Part shown: positions 6,891 through 8,045 of the stretch, piece by piece
How positions within the stretch are numbered: position 1 is the stretch's first letter
Layout of the letters: every line of letters begins with the position of its first letter
Assembly: GCA_017623675.1 (NCBI GenBank)
Contig: JAGAOO010000075.1
Coordinates: 1 to 64,000 of the forward strand
Length of the DNA: 64,000 nucleotides
Reading direction: 5' to 3'
Origin: Lachnospiraceae bacterium
GTDB taxonomy: Bacteria > Bacillota > Clostridia > Lachnospirales > Lachnospiraceae
Translations under genes and position numbers: made by a program
The notes under the pieces: model-generated
Told to the model about the DNA's origin: nothing
Seen by the model: only the letters and a program-made list of their open reading frames with translations
Databases searched by the model: none

Positions 6891-6978
6891 ATCAATGCTC
6901 CTTCGAGGGATTCAACATTTTCATACAAATCACAACACAAATATTTTAACAAACCATAAAATAAAAATCAATAAGTGT

Positions 6979-7007
6979 TTGCACTTTCCAGATATTTGCG
7001 TTATAAT
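6979..7007 (+). promoter_or_regulatory. Promoter of tRNA-Arg
   Basis: TTGCAC (6979-6984), a 17-base spacer and a perfect TATAAT (7002-7007), 10 bases before the tRNA. It may also be the only promoter for the RlmH-like gene that follows. Confidence 0.85.
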
Positions 7008-7017
7008 ACCAACTGAT

Positions 7018-7089
7018 GCACCAGTAGCTCAGTGGATAGAGCACTGGCCTCCGGAGCCAGGTGCGTAGGTTCGATTCCTATCTGGTGCA
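7018..7089 (+). tRNA. tRNA-Arg (anticodon CCG)
   Basis: A 72-base cloverleaf: acceptor arm GCACCAG/CTGGTGC plus discriminator A; D arm GCTC/GAGC; anticodon arm CTGGC/GCCAG with loop CTCCGGA, giving anticodon CCG that reads the rare arginine codon CGG; T arm GTAGG/CCTAT with loop TTCGATT. CCA is not encoded. It is a single tRNA gene on the strand opposite to most of the window. Confidence 0.96.
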
Positions 7090-7140
7090 TATTTTATTTT
7101 AAAATCCTTAAAGCATTCCCTGAGAAAATTACAAACTATC

Positions 7141-7578
7141 ATGAATTATTATGTATATTTGAACACGAAAAAATTGAATAAAAATGAAGAATTGGCTGTC
7201 AAGGAATACACCAAGCGTCTCAGCGCTTACTGTAAAACCGCTTGGTACTGTCATCCTGCCACGGATTGTATCAGCATCATATCGAAGATTAAATACTCTG
7301 AACATACCCTGTTTCTTCAGGTACAAGCAGATGAAGCCTCTCCTTCCTCAGAAGAACTGGCAAACGATTTTAATCAAATGGCGATTCAGGGAATATCTAC
7401 TGTATATATATTCATCGGATATCCACACGGAACAGAAACCTCGGAACCGATTATAAAGTCAATGAAAACCCTGTCTCTTTCTTCCATGACTCTTTCCACC
7501 GGATTGACCAGTGTGGTTTTTTATGAACAGCTATACCGCTGCTATCGAATTCTAAACAATCAACCCTATCATAAATGA
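7141..7578 (+). CDS. RlmH-like paralogue lacking the SAM loop but keeping the C-terminal tail
   Basis: A 145-aa protein related to RlmH, the 23S rRNA pseudouridine-1915 N3-methyltransferase. The N-terminal KEYTKRLSAYCK (residues 21-32) and the C-terminal LYRCYRILNNQPYHK (131-145) match RlmH well, including the terminal Tyr-His-Lys. The SAM-binding GGSLGL is replaced by IGYPHG (92-97) and FPHQLMR by STGLTS. It probably cannot bind SAM alone. It starts 51 bases after tRNA-Arg and has no clear ribosome binding site or promoter of its own. It ends 5 bases from the end of the convergent rlmH, which lacks exactly this tail. A partner subunit for that protein is the main hypothesis. Confidence 0.75.
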   Translation: MNYYVYLNTKKLNKNEELAVKEYTKRLSAYCKTAWYCHPATDCISIISKIKYSEHTLFLQVQADEASPSSEELANDFNQMAIQGISTVYIFIGYPHGTETSEPIIKSMKTLSLSSMTLSTGLTSVVFYEQLYRCYRILNNQPYHK

Positions 7579-7583
7579 GATAT

Positions 7584-8045
7584 CTAATTCAGAGTGAAAT
7601 AAATTTGTTCTGTCAACATAACACGCATAAGCTGATGTGGAAATGTAAGCTTAGAAAAGCTCAGTTTAAAATCTGCCCGTTGTACCACTTGTGCATCCAA
7701 TCCCAGAGAGCCACCAACAATATAAGTAATTTGTTGAATTTCCTGTTGTTTAGTAATTGTATTCACTTTCTTCTTCCATGCTTCTGTAGAATACTGCTTT
7801 CCATCAATACATAAGGCAACAACGAATTCCCGTTCATGATTGTCCAGATGCTTTAAAAGCCGTTGTCCTTCTATTTTCAAAATTCTTTCCCGTTCCGGCT
7901 CCGTTAAATGTTCTTCCGTCTTTTCATCCTCTATTTCTATAATTTCAAACGAGCAATGCTTTTGGATTTGGGCATGGTATTCCTTTATTTGCTTTTGATA
8001 AAACTCCTCTTTTACTTTACCAACACATAAAATTCGTATTTTCAT
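7584..8045 (-). CDS. rlmH: 23S rRNA (pseudouridine1915-N3)-methyltransferase RlmH, missing the C-terminal tail
   Basis: A 153-aa SPOUT-family methyltransferase acting on helix 69 of 23S rRNA. It retains the SAM-binding knot: GGSLGL (111-116) and LSFSKLTFPHQLMRVMLTEQ (about 128-147). Usual RlmH proteins continue after TEQIY with a further ~10-12 residues ending in EPYHK or similar; here the protein stops as TEQIYFTLN. No other frame restores the tail, so this is not a simple frameshift. From memory of the family, the RlmH active site is composite, with the tail supplied by the other dimer subunit. The convergent gene 5 bases away carries such a tail. Confidence 0.9.
   Translation of the reverse strand: MKIRILCVGKVKEEFYQKQIKEYHAQIQKHCSFEIIEIEDEKTEEHLTEPERERILKIEGQRLLKHLDNHEREFVVALCIDGKQYSTEAWKKKVNTITKQQEIQQITYIVGGSLGLDAQVVQRADFKLSFSKLTFPHQLMRVMLTEQIYFTLN

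Follow-up and report, generated by a model that had tools for sequence, protein, structure and literature searches.

The window, a 64,000-nucleotide stretch of a Lachnospiraceae genome, carries two convergent genes of the RlmH family (Table 1). The protein encoded on the minus strand (A) keeps the S-adenosylmethionine (SAM) loop and the FPHQLMR motif and ends in TEQIYFTLN without the conserved tail. Its plus-strand paralogue (B) ends in LYRCYRILNNQPYHK and carries IGYPHG at the loop site. The initial annotation had described both proteins in these terms, and their lengths, motifs and tail-to-tail arrangement were all reproduced from the coordinates, the sequences and the two stop codons, with one nuance: of the three loop positions, 103 and 107 still hold glycine in IGYPHG, and the SAM loop of B is therefore altered rather than wholly gone. 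B is preceded by a tRNA-Arg gene with a promoter-like site, which might also serve B if the two genes are co-transcribed; seven promoter-like sites were seen, against 5.0 expected from shuffling. Among 20 convergent pairs checked, A and B overlap by exactly 10 bp in eight (L064, L065, L067, L071, L073, L258, L260 and L154), and in these overlaps the TGA stop codon of A lies antisense to the Tyr-His codons of the B catalytic tail.

Table 1 Coordinates of the gene pair and its parts in the window.
Feature	Position	Strand	Basis
Subunit A (153 aa), tail-less RlmH that has the SAM pocket	7584..8045	-	sequence, profile, model
Subunit B (145 aa), tail-bearing RlmH paralogue lacking the SAM loop	7141..7578	+	sequence
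SAM loop GGSLG, A residues 111-115 (E. coli G103-G107)	7701..7715	-	sequence
FPHQLMR, A residues 135-141, contains the H129 equivalent	7623..7643	-	sequence
Catalytic helix and tail of B, EQLYRCYRILNNQPYHK (E138, R142, Y152, H153, K154 equivalents)	7525..7575	+	
EYTKRL of B, K25 and R26 (catalytic-side R25/R26 equivalents)	7204..7221	+	
IGYPHG of B, at the SAM-loop site	7414..7431	+	sequence, alignment columns
5 bp gap separating the convergent A and B stop codons	7579..7583		
tRNA-Arg(CCG), 50 bp upstream of B	7017..7090	+	
Promoter-like site preceding tRNA-Arg	6978-7007	+	

Both proteins belong to Pfam family PF02590 (RlmH), with scores of 146 bits for A and 78.3 bits for B against a cut-off of 27; the match of A stops at profile position 142 of 154 and that of B reaches the profile end. 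Neither reaches the cut-off of 172 of the NCBIfam RlmH equivalog model NF000985 (A 171.1, B 70.7). At the positions that characterize canonical RlmH, A has the GGxxG SAM loop and H129, carries F at 142, and lacks Y152-H153-R/K154 as well as the R26 and R25 equivalents. Conversely, B has neither the GGxxG loop nor H129, where it carries T, and retains E138, R142 and Y152-H153-R/K154.

RlmH has been described as a homodimer in which every part lies on one chain and the active site is composite across the dimer (PMC5430550). In the E. coli enzyme, one monomer provides the SAM pocket (L72, D73, I74, G103-G107, L122, L125, L127, V132 and others, with H129 termed a pocket residue) together with K11, K42 and R43, and the second monomer contributes R25, R26, R142, R154 and a tail facing the SAM site (PMC5430550). 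E138, Y152, H153 and R154 are reported there as essential. The composite site invoked by the initial annotation matches this assignment, which predicts that A should keep the SAM-side set and may lose the other, and that B should do the reverse. We therefore counted these residues in an alignment of 52 canonical, 47 A and 47 B proteins. The YHK/YHR C-terminal end occurs in 52/52 canonical proteins, 0/47 A and 47/47 B, and the loop motif G[GA]SxG in 51/52, 45/47 and 0/47, respectively, counts that are partly circular because both features helped to sort A from B. R142 (canonical 52/52, A 18/47, B 47/47) and R26 (canonical 52/52, A 16/47, B 46/47 with one gap) were not used in this sorting, yet their distribution matches the predicted subunit. 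H129 is present in all 52 canonical proteins and all 47 A and in no B, and G107 in 47/47 A and 4/47 B. B also keeps K25 (46/47, one gap), E138 (46/47; canonical 52/52, A 42/47) and each of Y152, H153 and K154 (47/47). The complementary loss of halves that had been proposed for this pair is thus supported, and R26 and R142 extend it. Hydrophobic residues occupy the dimer-contact positions 122, 125 and 127 in 46, 46 and 42 of the 47 B, whereas position 74 is hydrophobic in 6/47 B versus 47/47 A, indicating that part of the known dimer interface is altered in B.

The 47 aligned A include three proteins from genomes in which no B was found (G283, G275 and G167) and are not the same set as the 47 partners counted below; the 47 aligned B include a fragment from Aquibacillus albus. 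The near-copies G165_A, G165_B and G106_B were left out of this alignment and its tree in addition to the rows omitted from the first tree (listed below), and the A of Acetivibrio straminisolvens, which spans two frames, stands outside all alignments. A first, smaller alignment (36 A, 35 B and 43 canonical proteins; the fragment G583_B left out of its residue table) gave an agreeing residue picture.

We then examined how the two genes are distributed across genomes. In a set of 61 genomes with every match listed, nine had no RlmH match, 42 had one copy and ten had two. The single-copy match reached the final tail position in 42/42 genomes, and all ten two-copy genomes combined a tail-less A with B; seven of these belong to the genus of the window and the others are G039, G045 and G057, the last with a B covered fully in the profile search. 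Within the window genus, both genes were present in seven of eight genomes, its own included, with the A match ending at profile position 141-143 of 154, and the eighth (G002) had neither A nor B. This identical truncation in seven genomes rules out a sequencing or assembly error at the 3' end of rlmH, an explanation that the tail loss in named isolates also opposes and to which we assign practically no probability.

Wider samples gave the same picture. From the order (392 genomes), 37 genomes with two matches, a weak match or chosen as checks were inspected, as were nine weak single-copy ones, all of which end in YHK. At least 20 genomes of the order carry B, 17 with a tail-less A and three with no partner found (G106, G134 and G175), and none of these at least 20 has an intact RlmH. 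In a B-profile search of the order, all 131 non-B matches among the best 150 reach the last profile position, although ranking by this profile biases the set toward tail-bearers. In the class (391 genomes, 31 inspected), at least ten further B carriers were found, nine with a tail-less A; in the tenth (G583), no A was found and B lies at a contig edge. At least six more came from the phylum sample (398 genomes), 6/6 with a tail-less A, and six others are members of the window genus outside the order sample. The order, class, phylum and B-profile counts refer to the best-scoring matches and may miss low-scoring B, most of all in the class and phylum. A scan of genome contigs with alignment A3, of which the best 80 of 214 loci were kept, added ten new B carriers, nine with a lost or altered partner tail and one with an intact partner; the same scan with the window B alone as query confirmed no relatives. 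Altogether, at least 52 B carriers were found, comprising 47 with a partner whose tail is lost (45) or altered (2), four without a partner found (the three of the order and G583) and one with an intact partner, and, beyond the named families, B occurs in at least 18 coded ones. No genome among these at least 52 combines an intact RlmH with an intact B.

The intact partner is that of Aquibacillus albus, which ends in YHK and is accompanied by a B whose frame appears broken near its 5' end (L153 2880-3360); this exception is one record, in which a sequence error is possible. The initial annotation had also asked whether a truncated RlmH is invariably accompanied by the tail-bearing partner. This holds for all ten two-copy genomes among the 61, but A without a B found occurs in four f5-family genomes (G283, G275, G167 and G290; completeness 76, 79, 92 and 77%, respectively). 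In addition, the single-copy RlmH of two genomes of one genus ends in SYNK (G703, L118) and KYDK (G787, L117), with the essential H153 replaced and no second RlmH match above the cut-off, so a changed tail alone is no proof of a partner. In G062 (L101), an intact RlmH is joined, at a distance of about 3 kb, by a further RlmH-like copy interrupted by a TAA; this copy lacks the B pattern and reads as a decayed duplicate. The 1.5 Mb genome G641 (L115) has a much reduced A of 129 aa in tandem with a B-like gene of 87 aa, counted from a TTG in a longer open frame.

Phylogenetic analysis placed B in one clade (SH-aLRT 99 in the first tree and 96 in the larger one), although the length of some branches calls for caution. 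With the tail columns excluded, loss of the RlmH tail maps to nine changes on the best tree (9-11 in bootstraps), of which at least three are forced by well-supported branches; tail loss thus appears to have happened on several occasions. A sign test on three independent well-supported pairs found B together with tail loss in 3/3 in nearly all draws, with a median p of 0.25, three pairs being too few for significance. Of the A rows, 34/47 group together (88/96), which points to one old split followed by later ones. The A of Brevibacillus massiliensis is 82% identical to an intact-tailed Brevibacillus RlmH, whereas its B is nearest, among the sampled B, to that of G115 from the order of the window (68%), and these differing affinities suggest transfer of B between lineages. 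The initial annotation had envisaged a duplication after which each copy lost one half. The complementary losses agree with this, but the trees disfavour a single duplication within this lineage, and one recent local duplication is ruled out as the whole story by the single B clade and the several losses of the RlmH tail. The first tree was built without G583_B, G057_B, G641_A, G641_B, G290_A, G787_S, G703_S, G718_S and L041_C.

Both genes are under purifying selection. The dN/dS of B is 0.09-0.18 in five pairs at dS 0.7-1.6 (four within G074, G106, G115 and G134, and G003-G004), and that of A is 0.10-0.13 in two pairs in the same dS range (G074-G115 and G003-G004); inside the window genus the values are mostly saturated. 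Near-identical pairs hold too few changes for a ratio (G105-G165, B dN 0.006 and dS 0.022, A dN 0.003 and dS 0.064; G074-G106, B dN 0.003 and dS 0). In single-chain AlphaFold2 models (pLDDT 89.5 for B and 93.5 for A), both proteins are predicted to adopt the RlmH fold, and the best Foldseek matches of both models are RlmH structures (A, TM 0.94 to RlmH/OrfX 4fak). These data bear on whether B is a decaying, dead paralogue next to an A that independently decays as an unneeded enzyme. RlmH is indeed dispensable, with no match in 47/392 genomes of the order, and the Aquibacillus albus B and the Acetivibrio straminisolvens A do show broken frames, but these are the only frame breaks among the loci read. 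Together with the low dN/dS of B, the retention of YHK and R142 by 47/47 aligned B and the joint retention of A and B in many families, this rules out a dead B, and the probability of such parallel decay is negligible.

Another explanation would be that A is active alone as a tail-less homodimer and that B is a regulator or has some other function. A has indeed kept its SAM pocket and shows purifying selection, and some variation in the tail is tolerated, since a minor fraction of RlmH orthologues terminates at H153 (PMC5430550). However, Y152F, H153F and R154A each abolish the activity of the E. coli enzyme and R142A lowers kcat/KM at least 30-fold, while H129A, on the pocket side, leaves about half of the activity (PMC5430550). 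The window A lacks all three tail residues as well as R142, R26 and R25, and just those residues are kept in 46-47 of 47 B, a pattern that is difficult to account for if B does not carry out that step. We therefore regard an active A homodimer as very unlikely.

Instead, A and B very probably form a heterodimeric RlmH-type rRNA methyltransferase with one composite active site, as judged from the residues that each protein keeps. A would bind SAM in its knotted pocket, and B, no longer having a SAM pocket of its own, would supply the equivalents of R25/R26, E138, R142 and Y-H-K to the site of A. The reciprocal site, made of the B pocket and the A tail, would be dead, leaving A:B with one working site, which suffices in the proposed RlmH mechanism (PMC9508554). 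The residues argue against activity of either homodimer, A:A or B:B. The enzyme probably makes m3Psi1915 in 23S rRNA. A heterodimer with a changed substrate, modifying another RNA position, might instead be imagined, because B is missing the segment that would align with K42/R43, residues assigned to the proposed RNA-binding surface (a gap in 34/35 rows of the first alignment), and a helix-69 (23S) pattern had no match in the own assembly. Nevertheless, it is the SAM-side monomer that contributes K42 and R43, position 42 is K or R in 27/36 A proteins, and the catalytic residues in B are unchanged. Moreover, the own genome has no third RlmH-family match, and two RluA-family pseudouridine synthases are above the cut-off in it. 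A switch of substrate thus appears unlikely, and Psi1915 is probably the target of the A:B heterodimer.

The partner tails found beside B are graded. The two altered tails end in YHTKP (Brevibacillus massiliensis) and YRTKL (Evansella sp.); tails that have lost YHK or slightly more end in NEP (G499), GEP (Clostridium sp. cel8) and GER (Lutispora); and in the furthest loss the helix end and R142 are absent, as in the window A. This series may reflect an order in time. B would have arisen once, and in genomes that have it the resident RlmH would no longer need its own tail and would lose it stepwise, with YHK first altered, then gone, and finally the helix end and R142 gone, thereby locking the pair together. 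We lean towards the broader reading that B is a stand-alone donor of the catalytic tail spreading in Bacillota, which has repeatedly turned resident RlmH into an obligate heterodimer through a neutral ratchet with living intermediates.

If the heterodimer is real, the pair represents a natural separation-of-function experiment for RlmH that shows which subunit gives each residue. It would also show that one active site is enough. The case for both points has until now rested on structures and mutants of the E. coli enzyme. Furthermore, the path from a homodimer to an obligate heterodimer by complementary loss could be read stepwise, apparently in parallel lineages. Annotation by family models would then be reading the halves of a single enzyme as one truncated enzyme and one weak homologue. 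No report of split RlmH half-sites was found in the PMC literature searched, outside which most subscription papers lie.

Compared with known RlmH (YbeA, OrfX; PF02590, COG1576), the pair shares the fold, the SAM pocket (in A) and the catalytic residues and tail (in B), but the parts of a homodimer encoded by a single gene are here split over two genes (PMC5430550). The tRNA m1A58 methyltransferase Trm6-Trm61 likewise consists of duplicated subunits, one binding SAM and the other, devoid of the cofactor motifs, assisting with the RNA; it differs in being a eukaryotic heterotetramer with a Rossmann fold and a tRNA substrate, and its SAM-binding subunit is the one termed catalytic (PMC5372732). 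Among SPOUT proteins, mt-LAF5/6 of the Trypanosoma brucei mitoribosome is a natural heterodimer at the large subunit, but it is discussed alongside 2'-O-methyltransferases at the A-loop, and the portions of that report consulted here describe no complementary split of half-sites (PMC12123411). In METTL3-METTL14 and PRMT1ENZ-PRMT1PRO, an active paralogue similarly requires an inactive one, although these are eukaryotic enzymes of other families whose partner, as far as the consulted part of the source describes it, donates no catalytic tail (PMC10908127).
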